Notes under the pieces: model-generated
The model's database searches: none
The model's input: only the letters and a program-made list of their open reading frames with translations
What the model was told of the DNA's origin: nothing
Part shown: in pieces, positions 1 to 40,760 of the stretch
How the letters are laid out: each line of letters starts with the position of its first letter
Numbering within the stretch: position 1 is the stretch's first letter
Made by a program: the position numbers and the translations under genes
Virus record (IMG/VR): IMGVR_UViG_3300036046_000369
Span: 1 to 40,760 of that record
DNA: 40,760 bases
DNA from: a virus
Direction: 5' to 3' (one strand)

Positions 1-1404
1 TTAGCGTCGCCGTACCCGAGGAGCCGAGGAGTAGCGACCACTAATTGTTGGAATGGCACGCTGCACACCACTCGGCGTAGACAGCGGGACAGCTCCGGTA
101 AGGCGCAGCGCCCCTTGGTAGGCCAGCACGCAGGCCATAACGACGTCGTCGTGCTTCCCGAGCGGAGCGGACATGGTGACTCGCCCGGAAGCGGTTCGCT
201 GGTACTGGTAGGCGCCAAATTCCGTAAGTGCATATGCTCCTAGGGGCGTCTCTCGGCTTAGCAATTGGACTTCAGCGCACTGAATCGCGACGGCGAGCTC
301 GTTGACCGAATCCGCCTTCGAGAGCGTCGTGAATCGGTACGCATCGACCGTCGCCCACGTGATCCGGTCGGAAAGATGCTGCGCTACCGCCTCGTTGTTG
401 GTGGCGTCGATCACTACCGGCGCCCGGTTCCAGCGCTCTGAAATCATCGCAAACCTTCGCTCTTGTTCTGGATAATCGAGCTGGTTGAAACGGTCCATCC
501 AAACAAAACGGCGTTCATTCAAATCGAAGACCGCGACCACGGTGTAGTCGTGCACTTGAGCGATGTCGATGCCCAAAACGTAGCGGTGGCGCGGATCGGG
601 GGCTTCCTGCCAGATCGACGTTGCAACGTGCTGGTAGCCCTTGAACACCGTGCCCACCGAATCGAGGAACTCGGCGTCCCACTCTTGCCGAAAGAGATCA
701 TGCGGAGTGCTGAGGCGAGCTGCTTCATATTCCTCGAGCACCAAATAGGGACTTGAATAGCTGGCCATCTGCCAGGATCGATAGCCCGGAGTCTGAGTCG
801 TCCCTAGATCAAAGATTTCCTTGAACCAATTGGCGCCCTGAGGTGTACTGGGGAAAAGAGCAGCTCCAAGTCGGTCGCCAAGCGTCGGACGCAGGCTGGC
901 GTACCACACTTCTGCGCTGGGCTCCTTGGCCGCCTCATCGAAGGTAACCATATCAAATCCGCGGCTGACCAAGGACTTAGGGTTTGCGCTCGATCGTACA
1001 AGCACCCGACCGCCCGTGTGAAAGTTGATCGTTTGCTTGCCTTCCGCCGTTGTGTAGCTGGAAACCAGTGGGCGAAAACCGGGCATCATGACCATACGTA
1101 GGGTCTCCTCAAAGAGATTTTCGGCCATCGAGTACGTGGGTGCGACCATGAGGCCCCAGCCGCCAAAAGCACCAACGCAAACGTTTTCGAAAGCACACAT
1201 GGTGGTCTTGCCCCAACGGCGGCCCATTGCCAGGGCGCGAAACCGACTGCGATCGCAATGGACTTCCAGCGCGCGGTCATGGGGGACGTAATTCACCAGG
1301 TCCGCGATGGGTTTCATGTCGGTCTCCCAGCGCATCGAGGTAACCAGCCGGCGAAAGAACGGCCGCGGCAGGGCCTCCTTGTCGCGAGCCCAGCGATGCG
1401 TCAT
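1..1404 (-). CDS. terL: Terminase large subunit (DNA-packaging ATPase/nuclease)
   Basis: This 467-residue protein is the motor that pumps phage DNA into proheads and cuts it. The ATPase half shows a Walker A motif GRRWGKTT (Lys66) and a Walker B strand ending VTFDEA (Asp156, Glu157). The RNase H-like nuclease half shows the expected acidic residues: Asp280 in VLGIDIA, Asp333 in VVIDATNN and Asp419/Asp420 in KHDDVV. Length is normal for the family. The ATG overlaps the stop of the preceding gene as ATGA, which suggests translational coupling. It is the last gene of the leftward operon, after the tail genes, whereas terL usually precedes the portal gene. Its stop codon is the first three bases of the window, so nothing downstream can be read. 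The identity is secure; the position is what is odd. Confidence 0.95.
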   Translation of the reverse strand: MTHRWARDKEALPRPFFRRLVTSMRWETDMKPIADLVNYVPHDRALEVHCDRSRFRALAMGRRWGKTTMCAFENVCVGAFGGWGLMVAPTYSMAENLFEETLRMVMMPGFRPLVSSYTTAEGKQTINFHTGGRVLVRSSANPKSLVSRGFDMVTFDEAAKEPSAEVWYASLRPTLGDRLGAALFPSTPQGANWFKEIFDLGTTQTPGYRSWQMASYSSPYLVLEEYEAARLSTPHDLFRQEWDAEFLDSVGTVFKGYQHVATSIWQEAPDPRHRYVLGIDIAQVHDYTVVAVFDLNERRFVWMDRFNQLDYPEQERRFAMISERWNRAPVVIDATNNEAVAQHLSDRITWATVDAYRFTTLSKADSVNELAVAIQCAEVQLLSRETPLGAYALTEFGAYQYQRTASGRVTMSAPLGKHDDVVMACVLAYQGALRLTGAVPLSTPSGVQRAIPTISGRYSSAPRVRRR

Positions 1405-16051: not shown

Positions 16052-16981
16052 CTAGGCGGTCAGCACGCTTTGCAGGATCGCCCCGCACTCCTTGGCGACG
16101 ACCTTGCAGACGTAGTTCAGGTTGTAAGCGATCCAGTCGCTCTCGATTTCGTCGTCCCACCACTTGCGGACGTACTCTTCCGTCCAAAGCCGAGCCGAGT
16201 GGGTTAAGACCTTTTCACCGACGGTTTCCCCCGGATGAATAAAGCCCAGCCAAACGTCATCGCCCATCAGTCGACTCAGCGTAGCGGCCTGGCCCTTTTT
16301 CGTCGTATTGAGCAACGCGCCCACGTAGACCGCTCGCATCCCGTAAAACTGCGCCGGTAAATCCGACGCACCGCTTTGGGTGGAAAGGTCGACCGTGTAC
16401 TGCCGCTCGCTCTTGTAGTCGGTAGTCGCCATGATGTGGCGCGCCACTTTCGGCGTCAGAACGATCGTATTCGGCGTTCGGCCCGAGGCCTCTTCCACCG
16501 CGTTGATCGCCGTCTCGACGTTTGCCCGAGGAGTCGCTGTCGCGAGGTTCGTCCAGTCGAGGTTGGCCGCGTGCGTATTGTTAGCCGTAGCGCGCAATAC
16601 GCCACCGGCGCCAAACACGCGCTGCTCCAATCCATTGCAAATCATCCTTTTCAGCGTTTCGGTAACTTGCGATTCCAGGTCGACCCCGGAATCATTGTTA
16701 CGGCGCATCTTTTGCGTGATCTTGCTTTTCAGACCGTGAGGCTCGATCATGTAGGCATCGTAACCCCACCCCATGTCGATTTCGTTTTCCGGCGCACCGT
16801 CGGCACGAACATCGTTGACGATGTTGAATGCGGTCTTGTCGTAAACCGCGTAAACGTCCGAATCGTTCGTTACCGAGTAGGGCTTTACCACGAGGTCGGC
16901 TACGTGCTCCGGCGGAGTGAACTCCACCGAAAAGCCTGTAAGCAGCTTGTTGAAATGGGTATGAGCGGAGGATAGTGGCAT
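16052..16981 (-). CDS. Major capsid protein
   Basis: A 309-residue protein with features of phage major capsid subunits of the HK97-like fold. There is an N-terminal arm, then an extended E-loop-like region with Lys/Arg/Asn-rich strands (KSKITQKMRRNNDSG). A spine-helix-like segment follows (ESQVTETLKRMICNGLEQRVFG). The A-domain region contains VETAINAVEEASGRTPNTIVL and YGMRAVYVGAL. The C-terminal part has SARLWTEEYVRKWWDDE. The decoration-protein and protease/scaffold genes directly upstream give the standard protease-decoration-capsid order. Starts at ATG 16981, 3 bp after the preceding stop. No cleavage site was identified by eye, although the neighbouring protease suggests maturation by proteolysis. 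Confidence 0.85.
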   Translation of the reverse strand: MPLSSAHTHFNKLLTGFSVEFTPPEHVADLVVKPYSVTNDSDVYAVYDKTAFNIVNDVRADGAPENEIDMGWGYDAYMIEPHGLKSKITQKMRRNNDSGVDLESQVTETLKRMICNGLEQRVFGAGGVLRATANNTHAANLDWTNLATATPRANVETAINAVEEASGRTPNTIVLTPKVARHIMATTDYKSERQYTVDLSTQSGASDLPAQFYGMRAVYVGALLNTTKKGQAATLSRLMGDDVWLGFIHPGETVGEKVLTHSARLWTEEYVRKWWDDEIESDWIAYNLNYVCKVVAKECGAILQSVLTA

Positions 16982-16984
16982 GAC

Positions 16985-17548
16985 TTATGCGTAGAACGGA
17001 GCCAGCTCAAGCCGCACCGCGATGACGTCGTACTTGGCCGTGGCCGCCTCAAGGGCGTAACCAATCGGGTTGTACAGAGTGTTGGCGCCGGACGTCGCGA
17101 TCGTAACCGCAGGATCGTCCGCAAGGGACAGGTTGTAACTCACCGTGAAGCTCGGATCGACCGGAAGGTTGATCATGGGCAAGTTGGTGAACGGCGTCTG
17201 TGCGCTCGATCGAGCCTCGGCCGCTACGGCGAAGACTCGCGCGTCGACCGCGACGGCTGCATTGGTCATCACTTCCGCGACGCCTTCAACCGCGACGGCG
17301 ATCTCCTTGGTGTTGCGCGCACTGGCTGTCGAAATTCCCGTGACGCGCCGGGTCGCGAATCCGCCCGAAACCGGCGTGGGGACGACCACACGGCCAATAA
17401 CCGCCTGATGCATTCCGGCGGCCACCGCCGCGGCAACTTCCGTTGCGTCCGCAAGAGAGACCGGCTGGTAAGCCGCCAGGGCGCGTCCGTTGCCCGACGC
17501 ATCCCAGTACAGGTAGCTCTCGATCCGCTGGTTCAAGTGGAAACTCAT
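16985..17548 (-). CDS. Capsid decoration protein (DUF2190-like)
   Basis: A 187-residue Ala/Val-rich beta protein lying between protease/scaffold and capsid, where decoration proteins sit. Segments such as YQPVSLADATEVAAAVAAG, HQAVIGRVVVPTPVSGGFATRRVTG and IAVAVEGVAEVMTNAAVAV resemble the DUF2190 / head-decoration fold, in which short strands alternate with Ala/Val-rich turns. These proteins bind the outer capsid surface and stabilise the expanded shell. The ATG overlaps the protease stop as ATGA. Family assignment is from pattern recognition and could be checked with structure prediction. Confidence 0.6.
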   Translation of the reverse strand: MSFHLNQRIESYLYWDASGNGRALAAYQPVSLADATEVAAAVAAGMHQAVIGRVVVPTPVSGGFATRRVTGISTASARNTKEIAVAVEGVAEVMTNAAVAVDARVFAVAAEARSSAQTPFTNLPMINLPVDPSFTVSYNLSLADDPAVTIATSGANTLYNPIGYALEAATAKYDVIAVRLELAPFYA

Positions 17549-18084
17549 CGCTTCCCACCTCGAATCCGCGCCTCGGCCTGAAGCGCCGCTTCACGGAAGG
17601 TCAGCTTCGGGTTTTCCGATTGGATGCGCTCTGCAAGGTCAGCAATCTTGTCGTCATCACCTTTCCCTTCCTCGGGCTCATCTTCCTCGAACTCGACCTT
17701 ATCCTTTGGATCGACACTGATGCTCGCTGGCAGCTCTTCGAGCAAGCTGAGCACTTCATCCATCACGTCGAGCTGGTCCGTTTCCGTGCCATCCCCGAGC
17801 TTGCGCTTGGCGCTGAGCTGGATTCGCCCGCCTGACGCGGATGCCGTCGTGTATTCGGCCAAAGAAATAGCCTTTCGGTAGATCGGAGCCGTGATGCGGC
17901 CCGCGCGAGCAAGGCTGTCGAGTCGCGTCCGAATTCCTGAGATTCGGGACTTGGCCGATAGGTCCGCAAGCGCCCTTTCCGCCTCGGCAAGCCGTGCGGT
18001 GAGGAGCTTCTCGCGGGTCCCGGCCTCGGCGAGCTCCGCACGAACCGTTTCCAGGTCCTGCGGGATGGTTTGAGGGGTACTCAT
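17545..18084 (-). CDS. Nested in-frame scaffold protein (internal start)
   Basis: Within the protease gene, ATG 18084 begins MSTPQTIPQDLETVRAELAE and is preceded by GGAG six bases upstream. This would give a free 179-residue scaffold with an N-terminal coiled coil, a central region and a very acidic segment (EFEEDEPEEGKGDDD). Lambda gpC/Nu3 and Mu gpI/Z use the same arrangement: the protease carries the scaffold as its C-terminus, and a separate internal start makes extra scaffold. Here the internal start lies after the toxin-like insert, so scaffold can be made without it. Confidence 0.6.
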   Translation of the reverse strand: MSTPQTIPQDLETVRAELAEAGTREKLLTARLAEAERALADLSAKSRISGIRTRLDSLARAGRITAPIYRKAISLAEYTTASASGGRIQLSAKRKLGDGTETDQLDVMDEVLSLLEELPASISVDPKDKVEFEEDEPEEGKGDDDKIADLAERIQSENPKLTFREAALQAEARIRGGKR

Positions 18085-19278
18085 GGGGTTCTCCGGAAGT
18101 TGTCCGGCAGCGCCGGACGTAGGTGTGCTTCGGGCTTCAGGCTCGCGCCCAGAGTCCGAAGAAGCTAAAAGCCTCAAAAAACCGTTTGCGTCTCGAAGGA
18201 AGACCCAACGTGCGGTATCTTGCTCAAGGGCGCCTTCGCTGGCATCGTTTCTAGACGTAAAGCGAGGGGCGGCAGTAGATAATGCTGTCGATTCTTGCGT
18301 GCCAGGGGGGCGCCGATAGAGGGTTACTAGGGCTAACTCCGATCGGCCAGTACGAATTTCTTCCACGCAGACCAATTGGCCGTTAATCAGTTTTTCACTG
18401 ATAACCCTATCGAGTTTTCCCTTGCGCGACTCAATGCGCACCGAGTCGGGAGAACTGATAATGACCGGCAGTGACCTTAGGTCGTTTTCGGTAATGGGGT
18501 CCTTATCGCCCGCGTGACGTTTTGCGATATGGCGAACTGCACTTCCGTCGACAGTCCGCTCATACTCGGACACGTCAATTTCTCCGCCCGAAGCCTCACT
18601 GATAGCTGAAGCAATTTCCGGTGGAACGACTCCCAAGCTGGCCTTACCTTCAAAGTGTCCCTTCCACGCTTTTGCTACAAGCTCGAAAAGCGAATTTCTC
18701 GGGAATCTCCCAGACGGGTCGGTTTTCGGTGAGCCGTCCTCATGGGAACCCATTTCGAGCTCCTCGGAACCTGATTTTTGGAACGTTCCATTTGCATGCC
18801 GAGGATGCTTACTTTCATTCCACTCACTTAGGTTCACCGGCTCAATCCGGCCCATGCGCTTGATGTAAGGCCGGTTCGTTAGCCCCAGCCCTTCGAACAC
18901 GCGCTTCGTCTGCTTATCCTCAGGGTCGAACCAGGAAAGGTCCAACTCGGAGCTCACATACGCGAGCGTTCCGTCCTCGATCTCCTGGGCCGTCTTTGGG
19001 TCGGTCACGTCAAAAGTTGCAAAAAGCGAATCGCCAATTCGCTCCAACGAACCCGGCTTCACCCATCCGCAGGCCCGCTCATCGTCGTGTTCTCGATTGA
19101 CCGGCACCTCCCAGCCTTTCGCGCCTTCCGAAAAGTTTCGGACCATCTCGTCGAGCAGATCGGTGGTGATGTCAAGACCACCCGGGATTCCCGGATAGTC
19201 CCAGTGGCCGCAACGCAAGACTTCCGCCCGATACGGCCCCTTGCCACCGATCGAAGACAGGAAAACGAGGGTTTTCAA
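17545..19278 (-). CDS. Head protease (Mu gpI-like) with inserted nuclease-like toxin domain and C-terminal scaffold
   Basis: A 577-residue three-part protein. Residues 1-150 match Mu gpI-like prohead proteases: VPVNREHDDERACGWV, LAYVSSELDLSW and LTNRPYI. From residue 155 comes a linker, ESKHPRHANGTFQKSG. About 190-325 then form a nuclease-like domain of the phage Barnase-EndoU-ColicinE5/D-RelE (PBECR) type: AVRHIAKRHAG with His250 and His255, then SSPDSVRIE and LALVTLYRRP. From about residue 399 a coiled-coil scaffold with an acidic tail follows. The start is TTG 19278, preceded by GGAGG with 8-base spacing and overlapping the upstream stop as TTGA; the GTG at 19335 is less likely. The insert is poorer in GC (18361-18420 has 26 G+C of 60). 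Protease and scaffold are solid; the toxin family is a motif-level call. Confidence 0.75.
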   Translation of the reverse strand: MKTLVFLSSIGGKGPYRAEVLRCGHWDYPGIPGGLDITTDLLDEMVRNFSEGAKGWEVPVNREHDDERACGWVKPGSLERIGDSLFATFDVTDPKTAQEIEDGTLAYVSSELDLSWFDPEDKQTKRVFEGLGLTNRPYIKRMGRIEPVNLSEWNESKHPRHANGTFQKSGSEELEMGSHEDGSPKTDPSGRFPRNSLFELVAKAWKGHFEGKASLGVVPPEIASAISEASGGEIDVSEYERTVDGSAVRHIAKRHAGDKDPITENDLRSLPVIISSPDSVRIESRKGKLDRVISEKLINGQLVCVEEIRTGRSELALVTLYRRPPGTQESTALSTAAPRFTSRNDASEGALEQDTARWVFLRDANGFLRLLASSDSGREPEARSTPTSGAAGQLPENPMSTPQTIPQDLETVRAELAEAGTREKLLTARLAEAERALADLSAKSRISGIRTRLDSLARAGRITAPIYRKAISLAEYTTASASGGRIQLSAKRKLGDGTETDQLDVMDEVLSLLEELPASISVDPKDKVEFEEDEPEEGKGDDDKIADLAERIQSENPKLTFREAALQAEARIRGGKR

Positions 19279-19577
19279 CGCGACGACCTCCGATGAGCCG
19301 GTGGCGACTCGTTCCTCGTCTCGGTGTACCGGCACCGGTCGCCCTTAATAAGCTCGATCAGGTCGTCGATGCGGGCGACGAGCTCCGCCTGCTGAGAAAT
19401 TAGCGAATCGGACCGCGCAAGTTGGCTTTCCAAGTGGGCGAAGTATCGGTCCGATAGCTCTCGCAGCCGAGCGTCATGCTGCTTGACCAGCCAAACCGCA
19501 AGACCAAACGAGGACGAGAGGACCGTCCCCCCAAGGAGAAGAAAATCTTTGGTCGAAGCCGAAATAATGGGGTCCAA
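19275..19577 (-). CDS. Small single-span membrane protein with coiled coil (holin or spanin candidate)
   Basis: A 100-residue protein with one N-terminal transmembrane segment (FLLLGGTVLSSSFGLAVWLV), then a charged coiled-coil-like region (ARLRELSDRYFAHLESQLARSDSLISQQAELVARIDDLIELI) and a basic tail. The likely start is TTG 19577, with AGGA five bases upstream. It is coupled to the protease by a TTGA overlap. Topology fits a small holin, an inner-membrane spanin or a membrane tether. It is far from the endolysin gene at 37.9 kb, so a lysis role is only a possibility. It is the first gene after a 295-bp gap carrying a promoter-like sequence. Confidence 0.6.
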   Translation of the reverse strand: MDPIISASTKDFLLLGGTVLSSSFGLAVWLVKQHDARLRELSDRYFAHLESQLARSDSLISQQAELVARIDDLIELIKGDRCRYTETRNESPPAHRRSSR

Positions 19578-22600: not shown

Positions 22601-22813
22601 ATGGACGAAGACAAGTACATTTTCTTTGAAAGTCCAAATGACAAACTGGTACGCGACCTGAAAATCGAAGGCGACGACCTAGCGTTTGAAATGGAAGTGT
22701 GGAACGGTGCCGAATGGGTGAATTATTACGGAAACGCTTCCGACCTCGTAAGGCTTGACCCAAGTGAAGCCGCGGTGCTTTACGCTCAGACAAGACCGCC
22801 TCGCCGAGTCTGA
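22601..22813 (+). CDS. Small acidic protein on the opposite strand, candidate immunity/antitoxin
   Basis: A 70-residue acidic protein (starts MDEDKYIFFESPNDKLVRDL) encoded against the direction of the whole structural operon. ATG 22601 is preceded by GGAAGGA within about 15 bases, a plausible ribosome-binding site. Its 3' end overlaps the 3' end of the portal gene by 28 bp, so it converges on the toxin-like domain. Its first 60 coding bases after the start region (22621-22680) contain 27 G+C, well below nearby portal DNA. Position, small size, acidity and independent transcription fit an immunity protein or antitoxin for the RelA/SpoT-like portal domain. No family was recognised and no strong promoter was found, so the function is inference. 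Confidence 0.55.
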   Translation: MDEDKYIFFESPNDKLVRDLKIEGDDLAFEMEVWNGAEWVNYYGNASDLVRLDPSEAAVLYAQTRPPRRV

Positions 22814-24942
22814 CCAGTGGCAGCAAGCCATGCGGCCGCGTAGATTCTGTTCTGCTCCTTGCGAAGGAAGTTACGCCTAGCCCTTTCTTCCGTCGTAATT
22901 TTCCGATTCCCCTTCGCTGCCGCACGCGCAATTTGGGTCTCTTCCTCGTACAAACTATGCGCTACCTTTTTGGCCTCCATCATCGCCGAATGCGTGATTT
23001 GGATTTCGACAATATGGCCATTCGGAGCCTGAAGATTTACTAGTATGTCACGGTAACCGGCGTCCGTTGGCTTCCGAATGCGATCCTTCGGCAATCGGGC
23101 GAGTTTCCATTCACCAGTTGTGAGTAAAAGGTCGAGCACCGTCTGAATATCGTCCAGATTGTCGACCACCACTGAAGCGCGAACAATATCCCCTATCTGG
23201 CCCCAATCGCCGTCGTAATCTCCTTCTACTTTGGCTTCTGCCCGCTCTTCGGCTTTGAGGGGCGCCACCACGACACGCGGTCCCGTTGCCTTCTTTGCCG
23301 CTTGCCACCCCTCAGGTGCTGACCCGTCAAAAAATGGAATCCCGAGCGTATCCGCAATGTTTTTACTCGTCGCTTTGAATTGAGGATACGCCTCTTGGGC
23401 GTGCGTGTATGCCTCCGACTTCATGCGTGCCGGACTGCTCATTTGCTTACTCAAGCCCTCGACATCGCCGAAGCTGTGCCCCGAGCCTTCTTGCTTTGAC
23501 CAGCGACCCCGATTTTCAGGATCACCGCCACGTTTGTGCTTCGACTCGTCGTACGCCAAGCTGACCTCCTCGCTCATCCGCGCCATCTGCTCGCGCGCCT
23601 CTCGCACCAGGTCGCGCGCCTGAGACCGCGCGTCCACGACGTAGAGCGGCACGCCACTCTCGCCGGCAATCTGCTGCCAGTCGGCGCGCAGCTCCTGGCC
23701 ATCACGGTCCTCCACCGGCACGCCTTGCGTCAGGAGGTCCACCAGTCCCTTCAAAAGCATGCGGCGCACCTTCACGTCGAGCGGCTCCATTACGATGCGG
23801 CAGCGAGGCGCAGAGGGGCCAAAATTGTAGTCAACGAACTGGCCGAGCAACCCGGCGTTGAGCACATTGGCCAAGCCTTCAAGGATCGACTCGATGTTGG
23901 CGAGAAACAGTTCGATCTGCGTCTCACCAAGATTGTAGGTCCCCGTGTCCGGCGAGCTCGAACTTGCCATCTCCGGAACGACCATCGCCATGCGAATCAC
24001 CGAATTCAGGTGGTCAAGCTTCTCGACGTAGCGGTCCTCGCCTTGTACCGACTTAATGTCGACGTCCCACAGGTAGTTCGGCGAATCCTTGCTAAACGTG
24101 CTCGGCAGGACGACATCGCTGCCGCTACCCATCCCGCTCATCTGCTCCAGCATCACGGCGCCGTTGTCGATGACGTTGCCCTCCTCATCCGAGGTGCCGC
24201 CCGGCTGGTACCGTCCGATTTTCCACGGCACGGCAAAGCTGCGCGAGTACTGAGCCATGTCGTCGTACACGCTCTCGGCGATCGCGACGAAGGGGATCGC
24301 CGCCTTGGTGCGCGGCACGCCGTAGTTCGAGTCGAACTCCTTGTCGTTCACGAAGAGGAGGCATTTCGAGGCCGGCACCTCTTGACCGCCGCCCACAAAC
24401 TGCCGCACGCCGGCGAAATCGCCCGTTCGCGGGTCGATCAGCAGCCGGGTGTCACTCGGGTCAAACGCCGCAAAACGGCGAACCGCCCAGGCGAAAGGGT
24501 AATCGCGGTCCGGCCCGGCCCCACGGACCTGGACATTCCACCGCGGCTCCCATCGCACCTCGACCACTTGGTGGCCGAATTCCAGGGCGCCGCGGGCGAG
24601 CGACTGAAAGAGCTCGCGGATTTGAGATCGCAACAGATGATCGGCCAGGTCCGACACCAACGGATCGGAACACTCGAAGTGGAAGTTCGCACGCTCGACC
24701 GGCAGCCGAATGATCGAGAGCGCATCCCGGACGACCGGATAGAAGCGCACGCGGTCGTACTCCTTGATCGTGACGCTATCCCACCGGCTCGCCTGGACCC
24801 GCGTGATGCCGCGACTGTCGCGGCCCCAGCGGTTGATCTGCGGCACGTAGCGCGCGTCGCCCGTGCGGCCGAGGGGACGCAGGTCGGGCCGCTTCCCTTC
24901 TCGCTTGAGAAGCCCAAATCGCGCCAGCAGCTCACTCCACAT
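22786..24942 (-). CDS. Portal protein (Mu gp29/DUF935-like) fused to a RelA/SpoT-like domain
   Basis: A 718-residue protein. Residues 1-450 match gp29-like portals: RFYPVVRDALSIIRLPVERA, SRSFAVPWKIGRY and a C-terminal helical wing, forming the dodecameric DNA channel of the head. From Asp465 there is a linker DESKHKRGGDPENRGRWSK. Residues about 500-700 then form a RelA/SpoT-like nucleotidyltransferase domain: GDIVRAS (Asp585, Arg588), LPKDRIRKP, GYRDILVNL (Tyr630) and VEIQITH (Glu646). These match the metal-binding, GYxS-like and ExQ motifs of (p)ppGpp synthetases and related toxins. DNA encoding this part is less GC-rich (22981-23040 has 28 G+C of 60; 24121-24180 in the portal core has 39). 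ATG 24942 overlaps the previous gene by 11 bp. Portal and domain are both convincing; what the enzyme transfers, and to what, is unknown. Confidence 0.8.
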   Translation of the reverse strand: MWSELLARFGLLKREGKRPDLRPLGRTGDARYVPQINRWGRDSRGITRVQASRWDSVTIKEYDRVRFYPVVRDALSIIRLPVERANFHFECSDPLVSDLADHLLRSQIRELFQSLARGALEFGHQVVEVRWEPRWNVQVRGAGPDRDYPFAWAVRRFAAFDPSDTRLLIDPRTGDFAGVRQFVGGGQEVPASKCLLFVNDKEFDSNYGVPRTKAAIPFVAIAESVYDDMAQYSRSFAVPWKIGRYQPGGTSDEEGNVIDNGAVMLEQMSGMGSGSDVVLPSTFSKDSPNYLWDVDIKSVQGEDRYVEKLDHLNSVIRMAMVVPEMASSSSPDTGTYNLGETQIELFLANIESILEGLANVLNAGLLGQFVDYNFGPSAPRCRIVMEPLDVKVRRMLLKGLVDLLTQGVPVEDRDGQELRADWQQIAGESGVPLYVVDARSQARDLVREAREQMARMSEEVSLAYDESKHKRGGDPENRGRWSKQEGSGHSFGDVEGLSKQMSSPARMKSEAYTHAQEAYPQFKATSKNIADTLGIPFFDGSAPEGWQAAKKATGPRVVVAPLKAEERAEAKVEGDYDGDWGQIGDIVRASVVVDNLDDIQTVLDLLLTTGEWKLARLPKDRIRKPTDAGYRDILVNLQAPNGHIVEIQITHSAMMEAKKVAHSLYEEETQIARAAAKGNRKITTEERARRNFLRKEQNRIYAAAWLAATGQTRRGGLV

Positions 24943-25297
24943 TGCCCACTATCTCCGACGGTTGGACGTCCTCCCGTGCCGCACGCAAGTGAATCCCTTG
25001 CGTGATCCCCACGATCAGCGCGTTCAGCTGGCTGCCGCTCTGCATCATCTCATCCTCTTCCGCTCGATCGCCTAAGCCGTAACGCGCAAGCAGTTGAATC
25101 GCTTGCAGCCGATCTTTCGCTTGGAGGTGCACCTTACCCCTGGCCACATCCACTAGCCACGGTAGTGCCGCCTCAAAGCCTTTGAGCGCTTTATCGCGAA
25201 CGATGGAACGCTTTCGCCCACCACTCGTGGTGCCGCCGCGCTTAAGGTTTGGATGACCCGGAATACGGTCGGGTTTTGGGTGGACGATTTCGCTCAT
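24932..25297 (-). CDS. Putative terminase small subunit
   Basis: A 121-residue protein just upstream of the portal. It has a basic Gly-rich N-terminus (GHPNLKRGGTTSGGRKRS), a helical core (ALKGFEAALPWLVDVARGKVHLQAKDRLQAIQLLARYGLGD) and a charged tail. The core pattern, two helices ending in LLxRYGLG, resembles small DNA-binding proteins annotated as terminase small subunits or DUF5681-like. The neighbourhood (portal directly downstream, repeat array directly upstream) fits a packaging-initiation protein that binds a pac/cos site. ATG 25297 follows GGTGGTGAC. The large subunit is 24 kb away at the end of the operon, which weakens the inference. Confidence 0.5.
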   Translation of the reverse strand: MSEIVHPKPDRIPGHPNLKRGGTTSGGRKRSIVRDKALKGFEAALPWLVDVARGKVHLQAKDRLQAIQLLARYGLGDRAEEDEMMQSGSQLNALIVGITQGIHLRAAREDVQPSEIVGNVE

Positions 25298-25478
25298 GTC
25301 ACCACCGGGTAGGGAGACAACCCCCAGTTTGCCGCTTCAAAACACAAGTAATTACACTGACTTAATCCAGGTACCCCCAGATCGATGCCCAATCGGAGGG
25401 ACGCCAGAAGTCCACTAGAAGTCCACCAAAAACAAATACCTGCCGTTTGAACCTGAACGCCGCCTTGATCGGAGGAGT

Positions 25479-25626
25479 TTAGTGGACTTAGTGGACTTAG
25501 TGGACTAAAACCCCTACCCCCGCGCGCGATCAGGCGCGCACACCCGCGCGATCGCGCGGGATCCCGCGCGCGATCGCGCACGCGCGGACCGGGAAAAAAG
25601 TCCACTAAGTCCACTAAGTCCACTAA
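25479..25626. repeat. Inner inverted repeat made of 3 + 3 nine-bp iterons
   Basis: Three tandem copies of TTAGTGGAC (25479-25505) face three tandem copies of GTCCACTAA (25600-25626). The two 27-bp arms are perfect reverse complements separated by 94 bp. Counting the outer arms, there are ten exact GTCCAC/GTGGAC cores plus one variant (GTCGAC) in about 300 bp. Repeats of this kind typically bind a replication initiator or a terminase small subunit. Neighbouring genes are the primase-helicase and the putative terminase small subunit, so either role is possible. Confidence 0.85.
25521..25586. other. Palindromic GC core with four GATC sites
   Basis: Between the iteron arms lies an almost pure G+C stretch of overlapping perfect palindromes: CCCGCGCGATCGCGCGGG (25543-25560), CGCGCGGGATCCCGCGCG (25553-25570) and GCGCGATCGCGC (25568-25579). 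GATC occurs at 25528, 25550, 25560 and 25572. The DNA could extrude cruciforms or be a protein-binding core. The high GC content argues against this segment being the DNA-unwinding element itself; the A-rich flanks at 25428-25438 and 25592-25599 are better candidates for that. Confidence 0.7.
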
Positions 25627-25649
25627 CTTCGGTCCCGTCAGGTTCAATT

Positions 25650-28163
25650 TCACAGTAATTCTTTTTGGTGGACTTCTAGTCGACTTCCCCCCTCCTGAAG
25701 TCCACTAACGGACGAAAAACCCGCATAACTGCCGCCGTCAGTTTTTACCAGCCGGTAACGAGCGAAGCCGCTCGCCATGCTCGCCCGCTCGATCCGTCGC
25801 CCCGACCGGACCTTTCCAACCTGAGCGGCGATGGCGCGACCGAATGCCATCGATCGGCTGCGCTCGCTGTTTGCCCGCTCGAACACGGCGTCCAGAAACC
25901 CTTTGTTGAGGGCGTTTTCGCAAAGTTCCGCGGCGGTAATCGGATTACCCCCATACCGCTCTTCCCAGTCGGCCATGAATGCATTCCACATTTCCCCGAT
26001 TTCGTTTCTGGATGTTTTTAGCTCCTTATCGTTTTCGAGTAAGCCGTCTACCCCCGACCACCCCAAGATTCCCCCTACCACGTTTACCCACGATTCGAAC
26101 GATCCCTTTTGCGCCGGCGAGCCGGGCCGACCGGCGGCGAGCCAGTGGTCGACCAGGCGAAGGACGGCGCCGACCACACGCCCGCGGTTCTGGTCGATGA
26201 AGCGCAGGAGATTCTCGTGCCGGAAGCCCGTGCGCAGGTGGGGGTCCTCGACCTTGGCGTCGAGGCGAATCCACACCGATCGGCGCGCCATATCCTCGCT
26301 GATGCGCCCATTGTTCGCGGTCGCCGCCATCACAGAACGAAAGACGATCTCGCGGGTTGCGGATTGTCCGAGGATTCGGCCGCTGATCCGGTCGGACGTG
26401 ATGGCTTGGGTGAAGCTCGGCGAGTTGATTTTGTGCGTGAGATTGTCGAAGAAGATGGCCGAGCGACCCTCCATTGCCATCGAAAAGATGAGCTTCTCGA
26501 CGTCCGGCTCGTTGATGGGGAAGGGGATGGATGCCGGCGGCCGGCCCATCGAGGGCATGAGGCAGGCCTTGACGAGGAGGCTCTTGCCGGTGCCCGGATC
26601 GGGAGCGTCGACGAAATGCAGAGGGGTCGGGCCATCGATCATGGGCCGGATGAACGGCAGCAGCATGAGGGCGAAGGCGCCCGCTCGGGATGCGCGCGAA
26701 TCGAACGGAAAGCCTTCGAATATTTCCGTGTCGAGGTAGGCGACGGCGTCTTTGGCGCTGCCATCAAAGCGCGGCCAGTCATCGACCGATGGCGCCAGAT
26801 GGTAACGGCTGCGCTCGTTGTAGCCCGAGTGCCGCTGAATGTGCCCGTCGGAGCTCACGATAGGTGCCGACGCGATCCCCTCCAGGATGGGGATGCCCGG
26901 CCAATCCGGGTGGGCCAGGAGGTCGCCCACGACGTCGACGGGTGGGGCGGCGTGGCGAGGGCCCTTGTCGGTGATGCGGACCCAGTCGGCGGCGCGGGCC
27001 AGGTAGTACCGCAGGCCGTTCGGGCCTAGGGCTCGAATGGACCGCTCGCCTCGCTCATCGACCTCGATGTGGGTCAGCATGCCGTCGCGCACGAAAATGC
27101 GGGGAGGATCGTTGGCTGCGATCAGGGCGCCGAGGGCGTCGCTCGAAATGTCGCGCAGCTCACGGTTCGTGATCTCGATCGTGCGCTCCATGATGCCGGC
27201 CGGGGGCTCGCTCGCTTCGGCATTTGCGGCCACCGCGGTGACGGCTCTGGGTTCGCCGTAGCCCTCCCGCGCGAGGGCGGACGCGCATTTTGTGAAGTCT
27301 CCGCCGAATTCCAGCACCGCGCGAAATCCAAATGGACGGTAGAGCTTGTGGACCTCCAGCGGCGACTCGGTGGAGTAGTTGATGACGCCGTAGCCGGTGT
27401 CCCACGGCCCGAGCTGCAACGAGTGGCCGTCTTTCGGGTGCTTGCCCGGGCGGCACCAAAACGACCACTCCCCCTTGATGTGCGAGAGGGTGAAGCCGTG
27501 GGCGGCGAGTAAGGCCGGGAAAATCTGCTCGGCTTCCGCGTCGTACGCATCACCGGGTCGGCCGCCCTTCTTCTTCGCAACTTGCGGTGGGGCGCTGGGG
27601 ACGGCGGCGACGTCTTTGATCTTTTCCGGGTCGAGGAACTCGCCTGGGTGGAGCAGGGACTGGAAATCAGCGCCTGGGCGGCGGCAGGGCAAATAGTAAA
27701 GCCGATCGGCGTTCTTGCAGCTCGCGTCCGCGAGGCCGTGACCAATGGCGGCGGATAGTTTCTCCCAGGTCGCCGGCCAATGGGGCGCCGCGACCACGCG
27801 GGCGAGGGGAAAGATTACTCGCCAGCGGGGCACTGCCGGATGGTCGCCTTTCGGAACGCCATGGTGAAAGGTGGTGTGAAAGATGTAGGCGTAGGGCTCA
27901 AAGTCCGCTGCTAGGTCCTCGAACGCCAGGCCCTCATCGAAGTCGAGAACGAAGCAGCTGAGGGCGATGACATTGGCGGCGCCGCGGCGAGGAGGCGCTA
28001 CGGTGAGCGTCGGCGACCAAAGACCCACCGAATCCCGCGCGTCTGTGACGGTAGGGGTTGCGAGCAGCTGGTGCAACTCGCCGAGGTCGACTCGCCGCGC
28101 TTCTCCGGACTGAGCCTTGGTCGATCGCCAGAGGACGATGTCATAGCCGTCTAGGCCCACCAC
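25650..28163 (-). CDS. Primase-helicase (AEP-like primase + AAA/SF3-type ATPase)
   Basis: An 837-residue replication protein. The N-terminal third has an archaeo-eukaryotic-primase-like pattern: FVLDFDEG (Asp74, Asp76), then IFHTTFHHG and PRWRVIFPLA. A Lys/Gly-rich linker (KKKGGRPGD) and a middle domain with SFWCRPGKHPKDGH and later GYNERSRYHLAP follow. The C-terminal helicase domain shows Walker A DPGTGKS (Lys527), Walker B AIFFDNLTH (Asp573) and an ATANN sensor. It probably unwinds and primes phage DNA. The start is one of two adjacent GTG codons (28163 or 28160) next to GGAGGA and inside the previous gene's end. The last about 20 residues are encoded by the repeat array, so the C-terminus is shaped by that element. 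Confidence 0.8.
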   Translation of the reverse strand: MVGLDGYDIVLWRSTKAQSGEARRVDLGELHQLLATPTVTDARDSVGLWSPTLTVAPPRRGAANVIALSCFVLDFDEGLAFEDLAADFEPYAYIFHTTFHHGVPKGDHPAVPRWRVIFPLARVVAAPHWPATWEKLSAAIGHGLADASCKNADRLYYLPCRRPGADFQSLLHPGEFLDPEKIKDVAAVPSAPPQVAKKKGGRPGDAYDAEAEQIFPALLAAHGFTLSHIKGEWSFWCRPGKHPKDGHSLQLGPWDTGYGVINYSTESPLEVHKLYRPFGFRAVLEFGGDFTKCASALAREGYGEPRAVTAVAANAEASEPPAGIMERTIEITNRELRDISSDALGALIAANDPPRIFVRDGMLTHIEVDERGERSIRALGPNGLRYYLARAADWVRITDKGPRHAAPPVDVVGDLLAHPDWPGIPILEGIASAPIVSSDGHIQRHSGYNERSRYHLAPSVDDWPRFDGSAKDAVAYLDTEIFEGFPFDSRASRAGAFALMLLPFIRPMIDGPTPLHFVDAPDPGTGKSLLVKACLMPSMGRPPASIPFPINEPDVEKLIFSMAMEGRSAIFFDNLTHKINSPSFTQAITSDRISGRILGQSATREIVFRSVMAATANNGRISEDMARRSVWIRLDAKVEDPHLRTGFRHENLLRFIDQNRGRVVGAVLRLVDHWLAAGRPGSPAQKGSFESWVNVVGGILGWSGVDGLLENDKELKTSRNEIGEMWNAFMADWEERYGGNPITAAELCENALNKGFLDAVFERANSERSRSMAFGRAIAAQVGKVRSGRRIERASMASGFARYRLVKTDGGSYAGFSSVSGLQEGGSRLEVHQKELL

Positions 28164-39358: not shown

Positions 39359-39691
39359 ATGACCTTCGACCCGCTCGACCGCTGGCTCAAGCTGCACATC
39401 CTCGCGGAAATGTACGGCGAGGCGGCTTCGAGCTTGCACGATTTGGTGCAAGCTGGACGTCTTGCGGCGCGGTGGCGGGGTCGAATCACTTACCTGAACG
39501 AGCGGCAGTGGCAGGATTTCTTGAGTAGTCTGCCCGCCCAACGGGTTCCCAATGGCAAGGCAAAGAGTTCGAGGGGAGGGGACGATCGAGCAGCTGCCGA
39601 GCGGCCTCTACCGAGTCCGGGGCAAGTGCCGCGGGGTACGCGTGTCCGGCGAGGCGGCGGCGACGAAGGCCCAGGCGGTCCTCAACTATAA
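39359..39691 (+). CDS. Excisionase-like HTH protein
   Basis: A 110-residue protein whose first 65 residues look like a small excisionase/MerR-type winged helix: LKLHILAEMYGEAASSLHDLVQAGRLAARWRGRITYLNERQWQDFL. The part after about residue 65 overlaps the integrase gene by 140 bp and reads Arg/Gly/Pro-rich, so the real protein may be shorter in function or simply have a disordered tail. Directly upstream of the integrase, it is the natural excision-directionality partner. Confidence 0.6.
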   Translation: MTFDPLDRWLKLHILAEMYGEAASSLHDLVQAGRLAARWRGRITYLNERQWQDFLSSLPAQRVPNGKAKSSRGGDDRAAAERPLPSPGQVPRGTRVRRGGGDEGPGGPQL

Positions 39692-40760
39692 GGCAGCCCT
39701 TCAGGCCCTTCAGGGCACCAAGCCCGCCGCCGCACTTCAAATCCCCACTCTTCGCACGTGGTCGATGCAAACGCTGGAGGGGGCGTACAGTGCCCGAATT
39801 CAGGATGGAACCCTGGCGCCATCCACATGGGACCTTTACGAGACCGTCCACCGCATGCACATCGATCGCGACCCGATCGGCGACATGCTGATGACCGAAC
39901 TCGGACCCGAGGATGTCGAGCGCTGGGCCGCCGATCTCCACACCAAAGAGCTGCGCGACAAACTTGGCCGAATCAAGCGGGCAGCTCGCCCGATGTCTCG
40001 ATCGTCGAGGGCCCGCTACCTCGGCTACCTCTCCGGACTGTTTGAGCGGTTTCGCGTGGTGCGACGTGGCCGGCCAGACAATCCCGTACGGGACGCGGCC
40101 AAGCCGCCGCCCTATGCCGCGCCAGGTCACGAGACGTTCCGCATTCTGAGCCGGGCGGAAACGGTCCGGTTGATCGCCCTCGCGCGGGCGCACGAAGCCG
40201 AAACGTACGGGGCCAGGCCGCGATTCTCGGCGGCGATGGCCGAGCAGGGTGTGCGGCGTGGCCGGATGGTGCTGGTCGTTCTTCTCGGCCTTCACGGCCT
40301 TGGACCCGCCGAAATGGCCGGGCTCCAGCATTCCGATTTTGAGGATGGAGGGTTCTGGGTCCGCCGGCAAGCCAATCGAGGGAAGGTGAACACGCGGCTC
40401 AAGACCGCCGGTCGAGGCGGATGGGTCGCGGCGCACCCGGTCCTCGTTTCCGAGGCGCTGAAATCACCACCGGGCTACTTGCTCGCAACCGCCAGCGGCA
40501 AGCCGATCCGGCAGGAAGCGATCCGGCGCATGTTCGCCGGCATCGTGCGCGGCTCGGAGTTCGAAGGCATGAGCCCCTACGATCTTCGCCACACCTTCGC
40601 CATGCGGCTCCTGGAGGAAGGCGCCGACGTGAGGACGGTCGCCGAGATGATGCGCAGCTCACCGCAGGTGGTGCTCGCGCGGTACGTGCGGTCCCGATCC
40701 GACCTCAAAACAAAGGCGGCCAAATCGCTGAAGCTCGATGAAGAGGAACCCACAGAGTAA
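39552..40760 (+). CDS. int: Tyrosine recombinase (phage integrase)
   Basis: A 402-residue integrase. The N-terminus (GTIEQLPSGLYRVRGKCRGV) is an arm-binding domain, followed by a SAM-like core-binding domain (about 65-190). The catalytic half has Lys284 (NTRLKTAGRG), Arg346 in YDLRHTF and the nucleophile Tyr378 in LARYVR. The first catalytic arginine, expected in a T-G-L-R-x-x-E motif, is Gly251 here (HGLGPAEM), one base change from CGA. The His of H-x-x-R is Tyr343, which is common, and the second His is Arg368. It may be inactive, rely on another arginine, or reflect a sequence error. It ends with the last base of the window. Confidence 0.85.
   Translation: MARQRVRGEGTIEQLPSGLYRVRGKCRGVRVSGEAAATKAQAVLNYKAALQALQGTKPAAALQIPTLRTWSMQTLEGAYSARIQDGTLAPSTWDLYETVHRMHIDRDPIGDMLMTELGPEDVERWAADLHTKELRDKLGRIKRAARPMSRSSRARYLGYLSGLFERFRVVRRGRPDNPVRDAAKPPPYAAPGHETFRILSRAETVRLIALARAHEAETYGARPRFSAAMAEQGVRRGRMVLVVLLGLHGLGPAEMAGLQHSDFEDGGFWVRRQANRGKVNTRLKTAGRGGWVAAHPVLVSEALKSPPGYLLATASGKPIRQEAIRRMFAGIVRGSEFEGMSPYDLRHTFAMRLLEEGADVRTVAEMMRSSPQVVLARYVRSRSDLKTKAAKSLKLDEEEPTE

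Follow-up and report, generated by a model that had tools for sequence, protein, structure and literature searches.

The window analysed here is an entire viral record of 40.8 kb, and since both of its ends fall on gene ends, it is probably a trimmed provirus. The large terminase gene (1-1404, minus strand) is the last in a minus-strand block, far from the portal gene (22786-24942, minus strand); the major head protein is encoded at 16052-16981 and the integrase at 39552-40760. Two proteins carry additional domains: the portal protein has a RelA/SpoT-like domain C-terminally (residues 579-665, PF04607, E 4e-7), and the head maturation protease (17545-19335, minus strand) has a fused PBECR3 nuclease-like domain (residues 252-346, E 2e-15). 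The repeat array studied here sits between the 3' end of a primase-helicase gene (25650-28163, minus strand) and a gene for a 121-residue protein for which no family match was found; the portal gene comes next. An open reading frame of 119 residues (25294-25653, minus strand) covers the array and overlaps each neighbouring gene by 4 nt; its low-complexity translation gave no family match, and it is probably not a gene.

The array spans 303 bp (25407-25709) and holds, between 25410 and 25705, all ten of the GTCCAC/GTGGAC cores that the original prediction had placed within 300 bp. Its top hexamer occurs ten times, against at most seven in 797 other 303-bp stretches of the same record and at most six in 2000 Markov simulations. 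The outer arms (25407-25439 and 25655-25687) match at 30 of 33 positions, the same figure as first reported, and the inner arms (25479-25506 and 25599-25626) form a perfect inverted repeat of three 9-bp iterons each (TTAGTGGAC), as predicted, except that its length is 28 bp instead of 27. From left to right, the elements are the left outer iterons AGTCCACTA (25409-25417) and AGTCCACCA (25420-25428), on the plus strand and part of the outer inverted repeat; the three iterons of the left inner arm (25480-25506, minus strand), whose counterpart on the plasmid pWTY27 has been footprinted with RepA; the central spacer (25507-25598); the three iterons of the right inner arm (25599-25625, plus strand); the right outer iterons AGTCCACCA (25666-25674) and a degenerate AGTCGACTA (25677-25685), both on the minus strand; and an outermost right iteron AGTCCACTA (25699-25707, plus strand). 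The helicase stop codon lies at 25650, so that the right outer iterons fall within the last helicase codons and the outermost one within the helicase gene, while the inner arms, the spacer and the left outer iterons lie beyond the stop codon. The symmetry of the array is only approximate, because the centres of the outer arms (25547.0), the inner arms (25552.5) and a 13-bp stem in the core (25562.5) differ; the elements are roughly mirrored, as proposed, but the inner and outer centres are 5.5 bp apart rather than sharing one point near 25550, and "concentric" applies loosely. The iteron offsets of the window were set by hand, automatic centring having chosen the wrong gap. In DNA searches, neither the array nor the sequence around it had a match among phages and plasmids, and the Rfam matches obtained (miRNA hairpins) all scored far below the gathering thresholds and were taken as chance.

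The adjacent gene encodes a protein of 837 residues (PHROG DNA polymerase/primase, 7e-32). The full-length model was poor over the N-terminal part; the predicted model of residues 330-806 has fold matches to D5/SF3 helicases, including vaccinia D5, MPXV E5, SaPI5 PriRep1 on dsDNA, SCCmec Cch and NrS-1. A model of residues 700-812 derived from 58 sequences shows the element order of a winged helix, with helices at 744-754 and 767-781 and strands at 789-797 and 800-807, and its structural matches, all of modest Z, include solved winged-helix domains. A match to Zalpha, a Z-DNA-binding domain (Z 6.5), was one among many winged-helix matches and was not used. The protein is thus predicted to be an SF3/D5-type helicase with a C-terminal winged helix (codons 744-807, 25743-25934, minus strand), in which the putative recognition helix (767-781) maps to 25821-25865 and the wing-tip residues (796-800) to 25764-25778, both on the minus strand.

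Relatives were collected in two scans, of viral contigs and of species genomes, using the protein alone and not the array. Scans for close relatives by protein gave no matches; the nearest relatives are only about 38% identical. The two scans recovered 160 loci whose proteins share 31-38% identity with the helicase part. These fall into 72 clusters at 90% DNA identity, 70 of which had enough sequence for testing. According to the records, the hosts are mainly Alphaproteobacteria, with single cases in Thermomicrobiales, Planctomycetes-type lineages, Dehalococcoidia, Armatimonadetes, Poribacteria and Dethiobacter. Within its locus, the strongest iteron cluster lies at the helicase 3' end in 65 of these 70 clusters, and its layout is nearly constant; comparison with related phages, suggested as a check on the original prediction, thus showed conservation. 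Three large phages with related helicases (RcXuper, phiCbK and RpAliso) have no array beside the gene.

The iteron word itself varies among relatives (AGGTTCAC, ACGTTCCC, AGGTCCCC, ACATTCAC, ACGTCCAC and others), and one degenerate pattern, roughly ANGTYCMC, fits 59 of 65 words. The orientation layout is nearly constant across 64 lineages: from left to right minus, minus, plus and three minus iterons, then the centre, followed by three plus, two minus and one plus. Summed over these lineages, every iteron 30-60 bp to the left of the centre is minus and, with one exception, every iteron 30-60 bp to its right is plus, whereas those about 90-100 bp out are mostly reversed and those about 110-130 bp out mostly take the inner orientation again. 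The outer iterons of the window lie 118-140 bp from the centre, compared with the usual 90-102 bp or so. In 60/64 lineages the array centre falls within the coding sequence of the helicase C-terminal tail; it lies past the stop codon in the window, pWTY27 and a few others. As a route to relatives, a scan of viral contigs for GTCCAC triples was rejected, since it returned mostly collagen-like coding repeats, and most of the inverted arrays it found are in viruses without a helicase of the window type. Many viral contigs (L107, L030, L099, L113, L109, L110, L065 and L083, among others) carry inverted, 9-bp-spaced GTCCAC arrays with a different layout, often made of ATTGTCCAC repeats; the array adjoins an unrelated replicase gene in L107 (VapE-like), L030 (DUF927) and L099 (DUF3987).

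Between the inner arms, the spacer of the window is GC-rich and has no clear AT-rich opening element. The palindromic GC core with four GATC sites described in the original prediction is present, with the sites at 25528, 25550, 25560 and 25572 and a perfect 13-bp stem (25546-25558/25567-25579); folding of the 94-nt spacer gave z = -3.2 relative to dinucleotide shuffles. In 54 of 64 lineages, the purine/pyrimidine-alternating run in the spacer is longer than any other in the locus (median 23.5 bp, maximum 36 bp, about 6.4 bp when shuffled). Long alternating sequence of this kind is prone to form Z-DNA. The spacer of the window is longer, CG-rich and strongly palindromic, and its alternating run is 12 bp (p 0.023) and broken by GATC. 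Its edges still carry ACCCCTAC and CCGGGAAA, in an arrangement reversed with respect to the helicase gene; CCGGAA-like motifs are at the distal end in 34/64 lineages and at the proximal end in 2/64. Compared with most relatives, the edge motifs at 25506-25599 are reversed as though the origin core had been inverted.

A GC palindrome between two same-strand genes could also be an operator or terminator governing transcription that runs on from the primase-helicase gene to the late genes, and initiators often control their own genes. Nevertheless, no terminator or promoter call and no GC stem with a T run was found within the array, the sole terminator-like match being outside it (25254-25271, plus strand), so a terminator in the core was rejected. 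The layout is moreover retained inside coding sequence in relatives, and ten iterons exceed the needs of an operator. We therefore regard a regulatory element as a highly improbable main reading of the array, although a secondary regulatory role is possible.

To relate iteron words to the protein, covariation was computed over 59 lineages and restricted to residues 329-810 (482 columns). Covariation within the tail that relatives translate from the array was set aside, since the iterons themselves encode that tail and the argument would be circular; codon 800 ends at least 6 bp ahead of the first iteron (median 69 bp). Iteron base 2 goes with residue 776 (C with Lys/Arg in 22/23, G with Ile/Met in 16/22), base 3 with residue 772 (G with Thr in 36/41, A with Ile in 9/9), base 4 with residue 768 (T with Arg in 40/43, C with Gln or His in 12/16), base 5 with residue 800 (T with Ala in 38/45) and base 7 with residue 798 (C with His in 32/34, A with Arg/Gln in 22/25), and base 7 also tracks residues 799 and 796. 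Shared ancestry was controlled for by contrasting 28 disjoint sister pairs. In these contrasts, residues 772, 768, 800 and 798 rank first of the 482 columns for bases 3, 4, 5 and 7, with p values of 3e-5, 2e-4, 1e-4 and 8e-7, respectively, of which only that for 798 survives strict correction alone; four first ranks inside a 33-residue stretch are unlikely to arise by chance. Residue 776 is in eighth place for base 2, preceded by others from the same domain.

Leave-one-out accuracy was 0.73-0.98, compared with 0.59-0.80 when the nearest relative was copied. For the window, the predicted bases were A, G, T, T and A and the observed ones A, G, T, C and A (4/5), with only bases 2 and 7 going beyond a majority guess; the missed base coincides with Phe800, which is absent from every other lineage. 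Iteron words thus appear largely predictable from the initiator sequence, and the covariation indirectly supports the helicase winged helix as the probable reader of the iterons. Of the two binders put forward in the original prediction, the 121-residue protein and the primase-helicase, our data favour the second.

The same evidence bears on two further readings. High-GC DnaA boxes such as TTGTCCACA have GTCCAC as their core, and the array could be a set of host DnaA boxes, or else a partition site bound by another protein. The window iteron AAGTCCACT, however, is mismatched to TTATCCACA at four of nine positions, and across relatives the word shifts to AGGTTCAC, ACGTTCCC and others, tracking the helicase, which leaves this reading with a slightly smaller chance still than a regulatory element. 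Alternatively, the iterons could be in-frame 9-bp repeats of the 119-residue reading frame and no DNA site at all, given its 4-nt overlaps with both neighbours and the translation of the array as helicase tail in relatives. But most of the array is outside the helicase gene in the window and pWTY27, mirrored orientation is a DNA-level feature, the reading frame has no match of any kind, and varying words that track the protein would be left unexplained; we give coding repeats the least credence of all the readings considered.

The closest characterized system is pWTY27, a Streptomyces theta plasmid with a repAB-iteron origin (NC_013667), whose RepA shares 27% identity with the window protein over 514 residues (E 2e-51). 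There, a 300-bp region 3' of repA is required for replication, RepA specifically shifts this region, its DNase I footprint covers the inner inverted repeat, and the replicon is bidirectional (PMC3583192). As in the window, the array lies directly 3' of the helicase/initiator gene and combines mirrored 9-bp inner iterons with reversed outer iterons, its GTGGGA iterons having mirror-symmetric offsets of 37, 46, 84, 102 and 113 bp. The two differ in that pWTY27 is a plasmid rather than a phage, has a separate primase gene (RepB), uses the word GTGGGAAC, has two iterons instead of three in each inner arm, and has in its spacer a 12-bp alternating run but no CG palindrome, which the window spacer has; in the window the right outer iterons are inside the gene end and the outer distances are longer.

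These comparisons also bear on the second candidate function of the original prediction, a terminase recognition site (pac/cos) where a small terminase would bind the repeats and the large terminase would begin packaging. The array does adjoin the head-gene block and the gene for the 121-residue protein, a possible small terminase. It accompanies the helicase gene, however, in 65/70 clusters, and the next gene encodes a RuvC-like resolvase in six of ten sampled relatives and a terminase in none; the same layout is found on a plasmid without known packaging, the iteron words track the helicase winged helix, and the large terminase is at the opposite end of the record (1-1404). A packaging site accordingly seems very improbable, about on a par with a regulatory element. 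For the other candidate, a replication origin, support is strong, coming from the position 3' of the helicase genes, the layout, the covariation, pWTY27 and a change point in GC skew. Plus-strand skew, taken at the four-fold sites of same-strand genes, is -0.09 to the left of the array and +0.24 to its right, and the best change point is at 26121, about 0.5 kb from the array (statistic 7.7, permutation maximum 4.1). This is compatible with an origin nearby and is not proof of one; the block right of the array extends for just some 4.5 kb and might be modular.

Other systems share parts of this arrangement. The origins of SaPI Rep and SCCmec Cch2 immediately follow the helicase gene, whose product binds them through its C-terminal domain (PMC7581432); these are self-loading helicases that read short iterons 3' of their own gene and whose fold resembles that of the window protein, but helicase sequences and iterons differ. 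In the pRN1/Bordetella BIP-1 type, a stem-loop origin without iterons has been proposed 3' of the gene, and the pRN1 protein showed no specific binding (PMC4234260); like the window, this type has an origin element with a long inverted repeat just 3' of a primase/SF3 helicase/winged-helix gene. Phage P4 alpha, as described in the same work (PMC4234260), resembles the window protein in joining primase, helicase and an origin-repeat-binding winged helix in one chain, while by that description the origin repeats differ. The BPP-1 primase has no detectable similarity to the window protein. In BPP-1 (NC_005357; L384:1108-1210), two plus two inverted 9-bp iterons (GCCTCGTTT/AAACGAGGC) surround a spacer that contains the longest alternating run of the locus, CATGTACACGTATG, and the array is about 0.5 kb past the DNA primase gene. 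The mirrored-iteron design with an alternating spacer may be wider than the helicase family of the window.

Taken together, the array is very probably a (pro)phage replication origin, at which the adjacent primase-helicase would bind the iterons and load facing assemblies, the spacer would open and two forks would form. Array, layout, position and iteron/winged-helix covariation were computed here, while replication, binding, footprint and bidirectionality come from pWTY27. Copies of the primase-helicase would bind the 9-bp iterons via the C-terminal winged helix, and the mirrored triple arms would load two helicase assemblies face to face over the spacer, with the outer, oppositely oriented iterons stabilizing the complex. 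The spacer would be the site of duplex distortion and opening, after which two forks would depart in opposite directions. We infer two hexamers, spacer opening and activity in the virus of the window; for the two rings and the opening site, SaPI Rep and SCCmec Cch2 served as the analogues.

It was already known that iterons can lie 3' of the gene for a self-loading helicase. We consider it somewhat more probable than otherwise that the arrays represent an undescribed cross-phylum class of origins of phages, prophages and plasmids, with a fixed mirror grammar usually inside the 3' end of the initiator gene, usually an alternating core prone to left-handed DNA in place of an AT-rich unwinding element, and words diverging under a simple amino-acid-to-base code of the winged helix. 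No description of the orientation grammar, the alternating core or the recognition code was found in the literature examined, which included only a minority of subscription papers, so that novelty is not proven. On this reading as an origin, an anonymous repeat becomes an origin for which the initiator, the binding domain and the probable base contacts are readable from sequence. Dozens of natural initiator/origin pairs, differing in word but alike in grammar, are available in the family, which makes origin specificity, incompatibility and helicase loading directly testable, and automated detection of such origins in prophages would be feasible. The alternating, GC-rich core, finally, poses the question of how origins without an AT-rich element are opened.
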